From assembly GCA_020637165.1 (NCBI GenBank), contig JACJWN010000003.1, positions 434,001 to 498,000 on the forward strand: a stretch of DNA of 64,000 nucleotides, written 5' to 3'. Numbering within the stretch: the first letter of the stretch is position 1; every line of letters starts with the position of its first letter. A program made the position numbers and the translations under genes. The notes beneath the pieces were generated by a model, which saw only the letters and a program-made list of their open reading frames with translations, made no database searches and was not told the origin of the DNA. This DNA is from Mycolicibacterium sp. GTDB taxonomy: Bacteria; Actinomycetota; Actinomycetes; Mycobacteriales; Mycobacteriaceae. This document shows positions 27,788 through 33,640 of this stretch, piece after piece.

Positions 27788-28123
27788 ATGGACCAGAAAC
27801 CACGGCCCCGCACACCCGCCGAGCGGATCCGGACGCTGGCGCAGGCCGCATTGAACGCCGACGAGACCGTCGACCAGATGGACCACATCCTCGACGATCT
27901 CGAACACAACCTCCAGGGCCTCAACAAGGCGGTGGCCACCATGGAGGAGTCGCTGGATTACTTCAACAAGACGCTGCACCGACTCAACGACAACCTGGGC
28001 CAACTGGAAGGGATGATGGTCCGGGTGATGCGCCTGGTCGACGTCGCCGAGTCGGCCATGTCACCGGTGGTGGCCACCGAGTCAGTGGTGCGCGGAGTGT
28101 TGAAAACGATCCGGGGGAAGTGA
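27788..28123 (+). CDS. small coiled-coil protein of unknown function (Rv1444c-like)
   Basis: A 111-aa soluble protein. Almost the whole length from residue 10 to 85 is amphipathic helix with heptad spacing (DQMDHILDDLEHNLQGLNK, then FNKTLHRLNDNLGQLEGMM), suggesting a coiled-coil oligomer. There is no membrane segment and no known catalytic motif. It follows pgl by five bases, as Rv1444c follows devB in M. tuberculosis, so co-transcription with the pentose phosphate operon is likely. Its role is not known to me. Confidence 0.75.
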   Translation: MDQKPRPRTPAERIRTLAQAALNADETVDQMDHILDDLEHNLQGLNKAVATMEESLDYFNKTLHRLNDNLGQLEGMMVRVMRLVDVAESAMSPVVATESVVRGVLKTIRGK

Positions 28124-28188: not shown

Positions 28189-29379
28189 TCACAGTGGCGA
28201 CGGAAGTCCGGCGGCCGCGCAGCTACCGCGACCATGCGAGTCGACGTCGCCGGCGAACGTGAGCAGCGCGCTGCGGATCATCCGCGCCGTTCCGTCCGGG
28301 TGCCGGCAGGAACCTCGCCCGGCGACCAGGCCGGTCACTCGGCGGATCTCGCCCACCACCGCGTCAGAGGCTCGTCCGAAGGCGAGTTCGTCGAGCAGCG
28401 CTGCCAGCCGTGGCAGCCCGTTCAGACACGGCCCGCATTGCCGGGCGCTCTGCTCGGCCAGATACCCGGTGATCTCTGCGGTCCGTCCCAACCCGCATTC
28501 GCTGCTGCCCAGCCCGTGAACGACCCCGGCCCCGGGCGCGGCTCCCAGCGGCTGAAGGGCCGATCGCGACAACCGCGCTCCCCCGAGTTCATCGGCGGCA
28601 ACCCACGTACCGTGGTAGCCGCCTAGCAGAACAGCCCGAAGTGGCTCGCACCCGACCTCGGACACAAGGTCGGCCAGCGGTATGCCGGTGGGCACTTCCA
28701 CCACCCGCCAATCGAGCACACCGGAGAGTGTGAGGAGCATTGTGCCCGGGTCGGATGGTTCGCCGACGGAGCGAAACCAACCGGATCCGAACCGGGCAAT
28801 GAGCGCGATATGAGCCAGTGTCTCGACGTTGCTGACCAAGGTGGGCCGACCGCGGACACCGCAGACCGCCGGCCGAACGGCCCGGTCACGCGGCAGTGCG
28901 GGGCCGCCCTCGACACATCGGATCGCAGCGGATTCCTCACCGGCTACGAACCGGTCGGGCGCGACGACCACCCGCACCCGTCGGGAGTCCAGCCCGGCCG
29001 AACGCCGTTCGGTCAGCGCGGCGTTCACCGCCCCGGAGGCCCGGTGGTTGACGTAGAGAAAGACGGTGTCGACTCTCAGGGCCGAAGCCGCTGCATCGAG
29101 ACCGTCGAGCACCAGATGCGGGGCACGGGTCAGCAGGGTGACGTCCTTGTGGCTGAGCGGTTCTCCTTCCGCACCGTTACCCACCACCGTGGGCTTTGCG
29201 CCGCTGACCGCCGCCATCTTTCGGCCTGCCGGAAACCCGGCGCCGCCCCGCCCCGACAGCCCGGCGGACTCGACTTCCCGGATCAGTCCTTCTGTGACGG
29301 AGGGCAATTCGCCGAACCGGTCGAGATGGTCGGCAAGGCCGGGTCCGTCCGCGGCGAACAGCCGCGACTCGCCTAACAC
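28189..29379 (-). CDS. NuoF-like flavoprotein with SLBB domain
   Basis: About 396 aa from the GTG at 29379, which overlaps the upstream gene's stop by seven bases. It resembles complex I NuoF: the FMN/NAD loop LSGRGGAGFPAGRKM (residues 41-55), NGAEGEPLSHKD (about 68-79), a GEESAAIRCVEGG segment and GVRGRPTLVSNVETLAHI. An SLBB-type domain follows (about 215-290), then a C-terminal Fe-S region. Only three cluster cysteines are evident, C315 and C318 (SARQCGPC) and C358 (RGSCRHPDG); the first position of the usual four-Cys motif is A312. It is probably an electron-transfer flavoprotein working with the di-heme membrane protein encoded just before it. The electron donor is unknown. Confidence 0.82.
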   Translation of the reverse strand: MLGESRLFAADGPGLADHLDRFGELPSVTEGLIREVESAGLSGRGGAGFPAGRKMAAVSGAKPTVVGNGAEGEPLSHKDVTLLTRAPHLVLDGLDAAASALRVDTVFLYVNHRASGAVNAALTERRSAGLDSRRVRVVVAPDRFVAGEESAAIRCVEGGPALPRDRAVRPAVCGVRGRPTLVSNVETLAHIALIARFGSGWFRSVGEPSDPGTMLLTLSGVLDWRVVEVPTGIPLADLVSEVGCEPLRAVLLGGYHGTWVAADELGGARLSRSALQPLGAAPGAGVVHGLGSSECGLGRTAEITGYLAEQSARQCGPCLNGLPRLAALLDELAFGRASDAVVGEIRRVTGLVAGRGSCRHPDGTARMIRSALLTFAGDVDSHGRGSCAAAGLPSPL

Positions 29380-29918
29380 GCCACGGAATATTCTGTGAAT
29401 CCGGCGCGTAGCCGCCACGCAAGGACCACGGCCACCGCTAGCGCACAACAGCCGGCGAAGACCTGGAACCAGATCCGTCCGGCGTCGGTACCGTTGCCGA
29501 GGGCATGGGCGAGGGCGACCGGCCACAGGAGATAGGTGCTCCAGTGCACTACCCGGAAAACCCTGATCCCCAGGCGGTTCCGTAGCAGGCTGCTGACGAG
29601 GACGATCAGGATCACGTCGATGGCCACAGTGCCCAACCCTTGCCAGAACGGTCGGTAGTCGCCCAGGAACGGGATCACGACGTCGACGATCCGCAACTTG
29701 GCGTAGGGATCCAACAGCAGCATCCCCACGTGGAGGATCACCAGAGACGTCGCCGCCAGCGCGGTGAACCGGTGTACGGCGGCGACTCCGAAGCGGGGCA
29801 GGCCGAACATCGGGCGTCCGGACCGGGAGGCCACACCCAAGACGATCGACATTGTCAGAAAGCCGAGGGCAATTATCCCGTTGCCCCTGCCCAGAGCCCA
29901 CAGCACCTCGTCGCTCAC
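29373..29918 (-). CDS. ferric-reductase-like di-heme transmembrane protein
   Basis: A 181-aa protein with about six membrane spans, matching the ferric reductase-like transmembrane domain. Two histidine pairs suit two b hemes: H49 and H63 (VHRFTALAATSLVILHVG), H125 and H138 (VHWSTYLLWPVALAHALG). The N-terminus DEVLWALGRGNGIIALGFL is typical of the actinobacterial branch. No flavin or NAD domain is fused; that function is presumably supplied by the NuoF-like protein. GTG start at 29918, three bases after the Pro-rich gene. Confidence 0.85.
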   Translation of the reverse strand: MSDEVLWALGRGNGIIALGFLTMSIVLGVASRSGRPMFGLPRFGVAAVHRFTALAATSLVILHVGMLLLDPYAKLRIVDVVIPFLGDYRPFWQGLGTVAIDVILIVLVSSLLRNRLGIRVFRVVHWSTYLLWPVALAHALGNGTDAGRIWFQVFAGCCALAVAVVLAWRLRAGFTEYSVAC

Positions 29919-29921
29919 CGG

Positions 29922-30503
29922 TCAGGAACCTCGAGATGCGGTGTGCGACGGCGTGAACTTGTTACCCGAGGAGACCAGACCTCCACCGGGCCGCGCGTTG
30001 TTGCGGCGGCTTGAGAAGCTTCCCTTGGACGGCGCCTGCGCCGAGGCGGCGGGCGCCTGCTGCACCGGCGCAGGCACATTAGTCGGGGCGGGCGGCGCCA
30101 CATACGTCGGGGCCACATATGTCGGGGCCACATATGTCGGGGCCACGTATGTCGGGGGGTGGACCGGCTGCGGGGCGTAGGCGGGGGGCGGCGGGCTCTG
30201 CGGCAGAGGTTCGACGGTGGGCGGCGGCGGGGCTGCGACGACCGGCCGCGGCGGTGCGGCCGGGGCGGCCTGGGCGGTTGGTGCGGGCTGCGGGGCCGGT
30301 GCGGGCTCGCTGCGGCTGGCAATCGGAGGGATTGCGGCGACCGGGGCCGGAATGGACGGCTCAGCTGGCTGTTGCTCGCCGGCGGTCTTGAGGGTGCCGG
30401 CGTACGCCAGCGCGGACGCACCGGCAACCCCGGCGGATCCGATGCCGACCAAGGCCCATGAGGCGATGGCAACGCGGCGGAATCCGGAACGCGGTGAACC
30501 CAT
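29922..30503 (-). CDS. single-span proline/alanine-rich protein of the redox cluster
   Basis: About 193 aa from the ATG at 30503 (a GTG at 30536 would add 11 residues). A short basic start (MGSPRSGFRR) precedes one hydrophobic span, about residues 11-33. The rest is low-complexity, rich in Pro, Ala and Val, with four PTYVA repeats, ending in a Ser/Arg/Asn-rich tail. It has no cysteine and no FMN-binding fold that I can see. It lies three bases before the di-heme membrane protein and 63 bp after the kinase, so it likely belongs to the complex as a periplasmic stalk or spacer; this is inference. Confidence 0.7.
   Translation of the reverse strand: MGSPRSGFRRVAIASWALVGIGSAGVAGASALAYAGTLKTAGEQQPAEPSIPAPVAAIPPIASRSEPAPAPQPAPTAQAAPAAPPRPVVAAPPPPTVEPLPQSPPPPAYAPQPVHPPTYVAPTYVAPTYVAPTYVAPPAPTNVPAPVQQAPAASAQAPSKGSFSSRRNNARPGGGLVSSGNKFTPSHTASRGS
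30097..30156. repeat. four 15-bp tandem repeats encoding PTYVA units
   Basis: Units of GCCACATAYGTCGGG (plus strand) at 30097, 30112, 30127 and 30142, near-identical and in frame. They encode Pro-Thr-Tyr-Val-Ala on the minus strand in the Pro-rich protein. Unit number could vary between strains. Confidence 0.9.
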
Positions 30504-30566
30504 GACGCTGATGGTGGCAGGCGATTCTTGGAGCACTCAAAGACGAGCCGGCACACACGGCAGCGG

Positions 30567-31787
30567 TCAGGCGACCGGAAGCGCGATGGTGAACGTCGCG
30601 CCACGGTCCGGTGCCGACGACACGGTGATCCGCCCACCGTGCGCGTGGACTATCTCGCGGACGAGGGAAAGCCCGATCCCGTAGGACTTCCGGCCACCCC
30701 GCTTGGGATGCGTTGTGCCGTGCGCGAATCTGTTGAACATCGTGGCCATGGTGGCTCGGTCGATGCCGGGACCGTCGTCGACGACCCGAACGATGATCTG
30801 CCGGCCGGCACGCCGGACGTCCACAGTGACCGTGCCGCCGTGGTGCTCGCATGCGTTGTCGACCAACGCGGTCAACGCACGTCTCAGCGCTGCCTCCGAG
30901 CCGGTGACCTCCAGGGCGCCACTGCCCGTCGTGCACGTCAGCCTGACGCCGATGGATTGAGCGTGTGGCTCCATGCCGGAGCACACTGACTGCCCGAGTC
31001 GGCCGACGTCGATTCGGTCGGCGCCGCGGACGGGTGACATCGTGGCCGAGGCCAGCAGGTCGTCGATGATGGCGCCGAGGTTGCGGGTATCGGCGACCAG
31101 CGCATCGGCATCGCGTTTCGCCGAGCTCAGATCGTCCGTGTGGAGCCGCCGGGCCAGCAGTTGCACCCGGGTGTGCAGAACGGTCAACGGCGTGCGCAGT
31201 TCATGTGATGCGTCGGCGACAAAGCGCCGTTGCAGCGCCAGGGCCTCCGCCAAGGGCCGCACCGATCGGCGGGTGAACAGCGCCACGACCGCGATCGAGG
31301 CCACGATCCCGGTCAGCTCGGCCAGTGCCAGCGCGCCGAGAAGCCGCCCGCGGCTCGCCCGGTATGGCGTCAGATCCATCAGGGCGGCCATTCTGCCGTC
31401 GGGCCGGTCGGCCACCAGTACGCGGTAGCTGCGGTTCGAATCGTGGATGGAGGTGAAGCCGGCCGGCCCGGAAAGGACCGGTATGCCGACATTTCCACCG
31501 CCGCTGGTCGACACCGCTCCTGTCGTGTCACGGAAAGCCAATTCCATTCCCGGCGGCGGGTCGATCACGTCATCGGCTATCGCCGCCACGTTTGTCAGCT
31601 CGTCATCGATCTGGCGGTTCTCGGAGCGTACGTACGCGGCGGCGAGAACCAGGCCGACCAGCACCAGCACCGCTGCCAGCGCTGCCGAGGTCTGAATCGC
31701 CACGATCCGACCCACGCGCCGAACCTCGGCCAGATCCCCGTGTGGTAGCTCCAGCCAGTGCGGCAACTCAGGCCCATCTGCCGTCAT
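30567..31787 (-). CDS. sensor histidine kinase
   Basis: A 406-aa class I kinase. Two spans (about residues 27-52 and 149-171) enclose a roughly 95-residue extracytoplasmic sensor. The phosphoacceptor is H195 in ADASHELRTPLTVLHTR. The catalytic domain has the N box LTALVDNACEHHGG, VRVVDDGPGID and YGIGLSLVREIVHAHGG. Its start overlaps the response regulator stop by four bases (ATGA), so the pair is coupled. The genes that follow on the same strand encode the membrane redox proteins, suggesting it senses a redox or envelope signal that controls them. The ligand is unknown. Confidence 0.92.
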   Translation of the reverse strand: MTADGPELPHWLELPHGDLAEVRRVGRIVAIQTSAALAAVLVLVGLVLAAAYVRSENRQIDDELTNVAAIADDVIDPPPGMELAFRDTTGAVSTSGGGNVGIPVLSGPAGFTSIHDSNRSYRVLVADRPDGRMAALMDLTPYRASRGRLLGALALAELTGIVASIAVVALFTRRSVRPLAEALALQRRFVADASHELRTPLTVLHTRVQLLARRLHTDDLSSAKRDADALVADTRNLGAIIDDLLASATMSPVRGADRIDVGRLGQSVCSGMEPHAQSIGVRLTCTTGSGALEVTGSEAALRRALTALVDNACEHHGGTVTVDVRRAGRQIIVRVVDDGPGIDRATMATMFNRFAHGTTHPKRGGRKSYGIGLSLVREIVHAHGGRITVSSAPDRGATFTIALPVA

Positions 31788-32446
31788 TCCAGACCGAACC
31801 GATAGCCCAGTCCGTGCATCGTGCGAATGACCTTCTTGCCCAGCTTGCGCCGGAGGTAGTGCACATAAAGATCCACGGCCGCTTCGGATTCCACTCCGTC
31901 GAACGCCCGGACAAGCAGTTGCGCCCGGTTGAAGACGTGGTGCGGGGACCGCATCAGCGTCGCCAGCAGGGCACTCTCCCGGTCGGTCAGTTCGACGTCG
32001 TCGACGTCGGGTCCGCTGATGCGCCGGGTCATCAGATCCAGGCGGAGCCCGCCGGCCACCACGACGGTCGACGCGTCGTCGTGGCGGCGCAGAAGAGCCC
32101 GAACCCGCGCCAGCAATTCGGGCAGCTCGAACGGCTTGACCAGGTAGTCCTGCGCGCCGGCGTCCAGACCCTCGACCCGGTCCACGACCGAACCCCGAGC
32201 GGTCAGGATCAGTGCGGGGGTCCTGATTCCCCGCGCGCGCAGCAACGCGATCAGGTCCGCACCGTCCATCACCGCCGGACCGCGATCGACGATAAGCGCA
32301 TCGTGGTTCCCGGTGAGTCCGAGGTGCATGCCCTGCTGTCCATCGTAGGCAGTGTCCACCCGGTATCCCTCAGCGACGAAGATTTCCTCGAGCAGGGCGC
32401 TGAGCTCGCGGTCATCCTCGACGATCAGCAGCAGTGGCGGCGACAC
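31784..32446 (-). CDS. OmpR-family response regulator
   Basis: A 220-aa regulator. The receiver has the acidic pair ED-D near residues 10-12, the phosphorylation site D54 (DALIVDRG), and the T/K pair in ALILTARGS and DYLVKPFELPEL. The C-terminal winged helix is OmpR-like (LTDRESALLATLMRSPHHVFNRAQLL, then VDLYVHYLRRKLG). GTG start at 32446. It is the first gene of the minus-strand cluster, and diverges from apbE over 64 bp that contain a palindrome. Confidence 0.93.
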   Translation of the reverse strand: MSPPLLLIVEDDRELSALLEEIFVAEGYRVDTAYDGQQGMHLGLTGNHDALIVDRGPAVMDGADLIALLRARGIRTPALILTARGSVVDRVEGLDAGAQDYLVKPFELPELLARVRALLRRHDDASTVVVAGGLRLDLMTRRISGPDVDDVELTDRESALLATLMRSPHHVFNRAQLLVRAFDGVESEAAVDLYVHYLRRKLGKKVIRTMHGLGYRFGLE

Positions 32447-32466
32447 GTCTGGAAGCGTGCCATGGG

Positions 32467-32490
32467 GGTTCTTTCAAGGCTCAAAGAACC
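32467..32490. promoter_or_regulatory. palindrome between the response regulator and apbE
   Basis: GGTTCTTT (32467-32474) and AAAGAACC (32483-32490) are perfect arms with an 8-bp spacer. The site lies in the middle of the 64-bp divergent gap, so one bound protein could control both the kinase/redox operon and apbE-ferredoxin. The obvious candidate ligand is the adjacent response regulator. Confidence 0.5.
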
Positions 32491-32510
32491 TCCCGGCAGG
32501 CTCCGAAGCC

Positions 32511-33422
32511 GTGGGCGCATCCGGCTCGGCGTTGGAACCCGCCGGCACGTACTGGAGCCGGTGGAGCACCGAAATGCACCTCCTGGTCACCGATGCCGCG
32601 AGTCTGCCGGACGCCCGTGCGCTCGTCGATGCCGAACTGGACGCCGTCGAGATGGCCGCATCGCGGTTCCGGAGCGACTCGGAGATCTGCGCCCTGGCTG
32701 GCGCGAAAGGGGCTCCCCAACCGGTCAGCGAGGTTCTGGCCGACCTTATCGGGGCAGCTCTCGAAGCGGCGCGGGTGAGTGACGGCGACGTCGACCCCAC
32801 CGTCGGTCACGCGATCGTACAGTTGGGCTATGACCGCAACTTGGAGGAAGGGCCCGCCGCCCCGCGACTGACCTCGGTCGCCGTGCCCGTCGACTGGACC
32901 GCCGTGGAGTTCGACGGCCGCCACGTGCGCCTGCCGCCGGGCACGCTGCTGGACCTCGGCGCAACGGCCAAGGCCGTGGCCGCCGACCGATGCGCGCGAC
33001 TGGTCCACCGCGAGACCGGCACCGGCGTACTGGTGAATCTCGGCGGGGACATGTCGACGGGCGGTCCGGTTCCCGCTGGTGGATGGCGGGTCCTGGTCCA
33101 CGACCGTGACGACGACCCGGCCAGCCACGTCACCATCGGCTCCGAGACCGGCCTTGCGACGTCGAGCACCCAGCGGCGTAGATGGTGGCGCGCCGGTGCG
33201 GCGCACCACCACATCCTCGATCCGCGCACCGGCGCATCGGCCGAGCCGGTGTGGCGCAGCGTGAGCGTCGCCGCGGACAGCTGTCTGGCCGCCAACACCG
33301 TCAGCACCGCTGCGATCGTCCGCGGGCGCCGCGCTCCGGCATGGATCTCCTCGCTGGGCGTTGCCGCGAGGTTGGTCGACGCCGCGGGCCGTGTACACCT
33401 CGTCGGGGGCTGGCCATCGTGA
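32511..33422 (+). CDS. apbE: ApbE family FAD:protein FMN transferase
   Basis: About 303 aa from the GTG at 32511; the frame stays open further upstream but overlaps the response regulator. Family blocks: AASRFRSDSEIC, VDPTVGHAIVQLGYDR, LDLGATAKAVAADRCARLV, GVLVNLGGDMSTGG and HHHILDPRTGASAEP, which include the FAD/Mg-binding residues. ApbE attaches FMN through a phosphoester to Thr/Ser of partner proteins. It lacks a lipobox or signal peptide, so it would act in the cytoplasm. The stop overlaps the ferredoxin GTG (GTGA). Its acceptor protein is not obvious in this cluster. Confidence 0.88.
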   Translation: MGASGSALEPAGTYWSRWSTEMHLLVTDAASLPDARALVDAELDAVEMAASRFRSDSEICALAGAKGAPQPVSEVLADLIGAALEAARVSDGDVDPTVGHAIVQLGYDRNLEEGPAAPRLTSVAVPVDWTAVEFDGRHVRLPPGTLLDLGATAKAVAADRCARLVHRETGTGVLVNLGGDMSTGGPVPAGGWRVLVHDRDDDPASHVTIGSETGLATSSTQRRRWWRAGAAHHHILDPRTGASAEPVWRSVSVAADSCLAANTVSTAAIVRGRRAPAWISSLGVAARLVDAAGRVHLVGGWPS

Positions 33423-33640
33423 CGCGCATGCACATCGACTGGACCCGCTGCGATGGCCGGGGGCTGTGCACCGAATTACTTCCCGGTCAGCTCGCCCGCG
33501 ACGACTGGGGATACCCGTTGCCGCGGGACCGATCCCGGGAGCCGGAGATTCCCGAGGAAGTCCGGCGGTTCGCCAAGGAGGCGGTGAACCGCTGCCCCCG
33601 CCTGGCGTTACGCCTGGTCGACGATCGGCCGTCCGGGTGA
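33419..33640 (+). CDS. small three-Cys ferredoxin
   Basis: A 73-aa protein starting at the GTG at 33419, which overlaps the apbE stop (an ATG at 33428 is possible). The pattern CDGRGLC near the start and NRCPRLAL near the end gives CX5C...CP. This is the spacing of [3Fe-4S] (or three-Cys [4Fe-4S]) ferredoxins that serve cytochromes P450 and similar acceptors. It is probably the soluble electron carrier of the redox cluster, as no P450 is nearby. Confidence 0.85.
   Translation: MTRMHIDWTRCDGRGLCTELLPGQLARDDWGYPLPRDRSREPEIPEEVRRFAKEAVNRCPRLALRLVDDRPSG

Follow-up and report, generated by a model that had tools for sequence, protein, structure and literature searches.

Which protein does an ApbE-family FAD:protein FMN transferase modify when its gene lies in a membrane redox cluster that encodes no recognised flavin-binding carrier? 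This question is raised by a locus at positions 28189-33640 of a 64,000-nucleotide stretch of Mycolicibacterium sp. DNA (contig JACJWN010000003.1; hereafter the window). The locus holds genes for a NuoF-like flavoprotein, a ferric-reductase-like membrane protein (FRD), a proline-rich (Pro-rich) stalk protein, a sensor histidine kinase (HK), a response regulator (RR), ApbE and a ferredoxin (Fd). We consider it likely that the cluster transfers electrons outward, that it belongs with the MsrQ-like flavinylation systems and that its flavin carrier is of a new type, which would be the Pro-rich stalk with FMN on its last residue.

An earlier note on this DNA had described the locus as a two-component-controlled membrane redox cluster. 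As first framed, with FRD, ApbE and NuoF, the cluster is of an already known kind, because Méheust et al. (2021, eLife, PMC8238504) have described this combination among the MsrQ-like flavinylation systems. The sections of that survey used here report 1797 such clusters, broadly conserved in Actinobacteria and including 31 with a NuoF-like protein, and 670 genomes in which apbE had no known substrate, the substrates being still unidentified. They also state that clusters were kept when a signal peptide or lipidation site was present in the ApbE, FMN-binding, DUF2271 or DUF3570 genes; owing to this filter the present type was probably left out. What is new here is the stalk gene, and its nearest precedent in the portions of the literature used is the unstructured C-terminal extension that carries the flavinylation motif of FMN_red substrates (Huang et al. 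2024, mSystems, PMC11334425).

Gene content of the locus

All seven genes were found with the families that the earlier note had read, as judged by Pfam:

28189..29379, minus strand: NuoF-like flavoprotein with an FMN/NADH domain and an Fe-S region (PF01512, 1.9e-31; PF10589, 9.1e-14)
29373..29918, minus strand: FRD/MsrQ-like di-heme membrane protein of 181 aa (PF01794, 1.4e-8), with His 49, 63, 125 and 138
29922..30503, minus strand: small, N-terminally anchored Pro-rich stalk with the C-terminus HTASRGS-COOH, the proposed ApbE substrate
29922..29945, minus strand: proposed flavinylation tag, the H-T-A-S-R-G-S codons and the stop, with FMN predicted on the final Ser
30567..31787, minus strand: sensor HK with two predicted transmembrane (TM) segments (PF00512/PF02518)
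31784..32446, minus strand: OmpR-type RR (PF00072/PF00486)
32511..33422, plus strand: ApbE, FAD:protein FMN transferase family (PF02424, 1.6e-49), with Asn replacing the Asp of solved ApbEs
33419..33640, plus strand: Fer4_15 ferredoxin (PF13459, 1e-10) with three Cys read from the sequence

The coding overlaps also stood as claimed: 4 bp between RR and HK (31784-31787, ATGA), 7 bp between FRD and NuoF (29373-29379) and 4 bp between ApbE and Fd (33419-33422, GTGA). Two starts required a choice. For ApbE, GTG 32511 is a more likely start than Met 32574, because a W-S/G-T stretch upstream of the Met is common to the relatives, and the Pro-rich gene most likely starts at ATG 30503, since relatives have the same start (M[DG]SPRSGF). 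The co-location of the cluster genes is beyond chance, because they are grouped again in many other Actinomycete loci.

The stalk protein and its terminal motif

The Pro-rich protein had been passed over by the earlier note and is now, from its sequence and surroundings, the probable ApbE substrate. It matched no Pfam family, and no useful family was found for it. In the neighbourhoods of relatives, apbE is directly preceded by the gene of a small protein whose N-terminal anchor is followed by a stalk rich in Pro or in Ser/Thr/Gly, and in Actinomycete relatives the gene preceding apbE (or FRD) usually encodes such a stalk with a relaxed DxxTGAS at its very end.

Stalks were picked by position, anchor and composition, and the last residues were not used. 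A set of 104 loci was divided into 15 without an ApbE match, four with apbE at a contig end, eight without a candidate and 77 with a stalk; the window and L021-L024 stood outside this set, since their stalk precedes FRD. A terminal [ST]x[GA][ST] was present in 64 of the 77 stalks, and in 58 of the 60 whose ApbE scored at least 250 bits (the misses being L161 and L162). Shuffling of the tails (2000 rounds) gave a mean of 3.4 and a maximum of 11 for all 77 stalks, and a mean of 3.2 and a maximum of 11 for the 60, which rules out chance composition as the cause of the motif. When ApbEs were grouped at 65% identity, the motif was found in 50/61 against a shuffle mean of 2.5 and maximum of 8. The same motif was absent from the ends of ApbE (0/60), FRD (0/57), NuoF (0/51), Fd (0/50), RR (0/13) and HK (0/11) in these loci; it occurred in 9/1127 of all called proteins, 3/415 proteins with a close downstream gene and 6/95 single-TM proteins below 300 aa.

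Within the 58 tails, position -1 was Ser throughout, -2 was Gly (54) or Ala (4), -3 was Gly (30), Ser (15) or others, -4 was Ser (39) or Thr (19), and -7 was His (25), Gln (9), Val (9), Ala (4), Asp (3) or others. Read in register, the tail is D-x-x-[S/T]-G-A-[S/T] closing on the last residue. The final Ser was encoded by TCN in 46 cases and AGY in 12, and the use of both codon families argues for selection on the residue. Three tails (those of L046, from Streptomyces griseorubiginosus, and of L167 and L185) were exactly Dxx[ST]GAS, and L187 had the same motif one residue before its end. As for the usual marks of an ApbE substrate, the window stalk has the genetic association with apbE, and its tail HTASRGS is a relaxed form that departs from the strict D-x-x-[S/T]-G-A-[S/T].

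In one locus, L208, the gene directly upstream of an ApbE-FRD-NuoF-Fd set codes for a stalk rich in Pro and Thr, at the end of which lies an FMN_bind domain containing VSGAT. By sequence this single case is a swap in position, the bare tail being replaced by a known flavin domain. A pair of Arg residues ahead of the anchor was found in 50/60 stalks and 11/65 single-TM controls, and RRxx[LIVMFA] fitted only 22/60; the pair would suit Tat export and equally a plain N-in topology.

Co-occurrence with ApbE and the missing FMN_bind

MsrQ-like systems in the published survey, as far as the sections used here describe them, typically include a protein with an FMN-binding domain (PF04205), whereas the present cluster has none and a fold-less stalk in its place. 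The window genome (94% complete) contains one ApbE and one PF01794 protein, and FMN_bind (PF04205) was not found in it; DUF2271, DUF3570, Flavodoxin_4 and FMN_red were not searched for. FMN_bind was likewise absent from all nine mycobacteria with ApbE, namely, the window genome and eight relatives. Of 393 genomes sampled across the class, 56 had this ApbE type (cut at 198 bits or above), and FRD occurred in 52 of these 56 versus 106 of the 337 others (Fisher p 6e-19). FMN_bind was absent from 30 of the 56.

The stalk was then sought in 27 mycobacterial genomes, comprising 23 of 24 same-genus relatives, the window genome, and G176, G246 and G294, which were added as known ApbE carriers; G003 (72% complete) was omitted. 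It was present in 9/9 genus genomes with ApbE and 0/18 without (Fisher p 2e-7), and leaving out the three added genomes gave 6/6 and 0/18. The rule that a genome without apbE lacks the stalk was counted only within the genus, the 15 of 104 loci without an ApbE match standing outside this count. Co-occurrence persisted where the genes were unlinked: in G246 the stalk lies on a contig other than that of apbE and ends in SRGS.

The earlier note had held that scattered, unlinked genes in relatives would speak against a system. In G004, G009, G018, G024 and G176 the cluster stands in two parts: the stalk keeps to FRD-NuoF, and apbE lies elsewhere, near RR-HK. Scattering is thus real in part, and the parts remain in the genome. 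The proposed tie to a two-component pair agrees with what was found in nine mycobacteria (the window, L025, L129, L137, L139, L142, L203, L204 and L206), where RR and HK adjoin ApbE or sit within about 3 kb of it. Both were present in 12/60 loci of the wider set, many of which span only a few kb. The pair would probably set the expression of the cluster. G018 also has, at L205, another ApbE (PF02424) that is more distant and lies next to an FRD-like protein and RR/HK of its own. FRD-NuoF-Fd with RR-HK was also seen in a Chloroflexi metagenome-assembled genome (MAG; L050), and NuoF-Fd in a Dormiibacterota MAG (L057); from these two MAGs, whose binning was unchecked, the redox core may reach beyond Actinomycetota.

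The ApbE subfamily

The window ApbE has the PF02424 fold and sequence and keeps the HHxxDP stretch. It departs from solved ApbEs at an Asp that we take to be a metal ligand: the residue is Asn in the window, as in all 13 ApbEs of alignment A3 and in those of the wider locus alignment that score 250 bits or more, and it is Glu in 16 lower-scoring loci. This comparison rests on alignments to two solved ApbEs. The idea that the change to Asn co-evolved with the relaxed motif was weakened, as L046 and L167 pair the exact motif with an Asn-type ApbE. No ApbE signal peptide was seen; a hydrophobic 17-mer was flagged in 3/60 N-termini and was read as the first strand of the domain. ApbE is therefore probably cytosolic, in which case the flavin would be attached in the cytosol and the stalk exported afterwards.

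A second ApbE branch (L181-L196; Glu for Asp, 80-190 bits) lies beside FRD, mostly without NuoF. The stalks there end in TKSS, TRGS, SKGSG, SQGSG or DATTGAS, those of L193-L195 have unrelated ends, and a small protein with an acidic DDD-run end is found nearby in several of these loci.

The predicted electron route

The window NuoF-like protein retains the FMN/NADH region, as in NuoF/Nqo1 of complex I, together with three of the four Cys ligands of the N3 Fe-S cluster. Unlike in complex I, the first of these Cys is Ala, and the protein is partnered with a heme protein and a small ferredoxin. The first N3 Cys was absent in 78/78 related NuoF-like open reading frames (ORFs) in which the motif was matched (seven of the 85 were not matched by the pattern), and the window protein scores 180 bits against a cut-off of 559. 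The four-Cys N3 site that marks true NuoF is thus incomplete.

The 181-aa FRD was correctly described in the earlier note as lacking a flavin domain of its own, since Pfam found neither a flavin nor an NAD domain in it. Its His 49, 63, 125 and 138 were invariant in 12/12 aligned relatives and are predicted heme ligands. The cluster shares three traits with MsrQ-like systems: a PF01794 membrane protein clustered with apbE, with a NuoF-like protein as in the 31 published clusters; an NAD(P)H donor module, which may be a C-terminal NAD domain or NuoF-like PF10589 and is the latter here; and the four His, heme binding being predicted from sequence in our case.

The ferredoxin was fused to the NuoF-like protein in 9/85 ORFs, all nine from loci without this ApbE type, and L040 has a paralogous NuoF-Fd pair within a cytochrome P450 cluster. 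Because of these fusions and this pair, the direction from NADH through NuoF to Fd is likelier than that from Fd to NuoF. Accordingly, NADH would reduce the FMN on the NuoF-like protein in the cytosol, and electrons would pass from its Fe-S site to the small ferredoxin and on to the two b hemes of FRD, crossing the membrane through these hemes to an FMN held outside. That FMN would have been bound covalently by ApbE to the last Ser of the HTASRGS tail, on the membrane-anchored stalk. The carrier, having no recognised flavin-binding fold, would act as a flavin on a string, swinging between heme and an outside acceptor.

A 3-Cys ferredoxin next to a NuoF-like protein of ~38-41% identity was also observed in L036-L040, L061, L062, L064, L065 and L067. 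The catabolic surroundings of this pair are conserved across many mycobacteria and a Nocardia, and in L040 they include the P450 and a thiolase-like/ChsH2-domain protein. The pair appears to be an NADH:ferredoxin reductase that serves the P450. In L051-L056, FRDs of the Streptomyces type and related FRDs have long charged or repetitive C-terminal tails and lie beside NuoF-Fd fusions, in loci without ApbE. In the window itself, a 111-aa ORF lies between devB and the cluster (27788-28123), for which Pfam gave coiled-coil matches below threshold only.

Discussion

The proposal that the stalk tail carries FMN has parallels. FMN_red substrates resemble the stalk in having an ApbE motif near the C-terminus and outside the fold, and differ from it in having a folded flavin-binding domain and in coming mostly from Firmicutes, according to the parts of that study cited above. 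Engineered flavin tags, as summarised in the passages used of a review (PMC12052999), need only seven residues and work best at protein ends, with minor effect of losing the Asp; unlike the stalk, they are artificial and keep the strict motif. In the open-licence literature searched, and within the portions of it that were available, no description of a fold-less C-terminal ApbE substrate was found.

Several observations weigh against the proposal. The Asn in place of Asp is the main ground for caution, since it leaves flavin transfer by this ApbE type uncertain, and a cytosolic ApbE with an outside tail demands export after modification. The strict motif is broken in most tails, the window's included (no Asp, GA relaxed), and position -7 is H, Q or D in 37/58 and Val in nine. 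According to the review passages (PMC12052999), changes of the Gly or Ala halve flavinylation and ApbE prefers Thr to Ser, and all 58 tails close in Ser. Where ApbE scored below 250 bits, only 6/17 stalks had the terminal motif, with six more having it within three residues of the end. No stalk before apbE was obtained from five loci whose ApbE reached 250 bits (L137, L139, L142, L144 and L146): in the first three the stalk was located elsewhere in the genome, L144 has two tandem stalk-like genes (737-1416) with SGGS ends, its apbE being preceded by another kind of small protein, and no stalk was found in L146. Finally, FMN_bind is present in 26/56 genomes with this ApbE type.

Four other explanations were considered. 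ApbE could modify FRD, the NuoF-like protein or an unlinked protein, the stalk tail serving for docking or sorting, for example as a binding site for ApbE, FRD or an envelope partner. The usual departure from the strict motif would fit this, as would the existence of other substrate classes (DUF2271, DUF3570, Flavodoxin_4 and FMN_red in the cited parts of PMC8238504 and PMC11334425), none of which was covered by the genome searches. We hold it to be unlikely, though with some weight, because Dxx[ST]GA[ST] is absent from FRD (0/58), NuoF (0/54) and Fd (0/51) of the loci, the nine mycobacteria with ApbE have no FMN_bind, stalk and ApbE co-occur even when unlinked and the acceptor motif stands unaltered at the end of three stalks.

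The earlier note had proposed that electrons run from the ferredoxin through the NuoF-like protein to the hemes, and on that route the Pro-rich protein would be incidental, such as a wall spacer. The parts adjoin each other, and some NuoF relatives partner ferredoxin in other enzymes. The fusions and the P450-cluster pair suggest instead that Fd is the acceptor, and within the genus the stalk is conserved as much as ApbE; this route therefore seems improbable to us. Slightly less probable still is an Asn-type ApbE that is not a flavin transferase and binds or hydrolyses FAD, the cluster being a plain heme reductase: the Asn in every aligned ApbE of at least 250 bits, with Glu in the lower-scoring loci, would suit it, and the retained remainder of the fold with HHxxDP and the strict association with tag-bearing stalks argue against it. 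The least probable explanation, a nucleotide artefact of an overlapping apbE start and ribosome-binding site (e.g. GGA GGT TCA TGA), draws on the many stalk stop codons that overlap or abut the apbE start and on CGA GGT TCC before the FRD start in the window, and is largely refuted by the Ser codons from both TCN and AGY, the bias reaching -4 and -7, its absence at other gene junctions of the same loci and the G246 tail on a separate contig.

Returning to the flavinylated stalk, we give an even chance to a broader claim, that it represents a natural class of flavin carrier consisting of a disordered anchored stalk that has no flavin-binding fold and an FMN phosphoester on its last residue, made in the cytosol by a divergent ApbE subfamily and exported, perhaps by Tat, to pass on electrons from the FRD hemes. 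The stalk is a concrete candidate substrate for the actinobacterial group, with a named residue, and it suggests why a signal-peptide filter would miss such proteins. If the proposal is true, part of the orphan apbE genes of Actinobacteria would be explained, and searches for ApbE substrates would have to change. Natural flavinylation would then need no flavin-binding domain, and a redox cofactor could be carried at the end of a disordered stalk.

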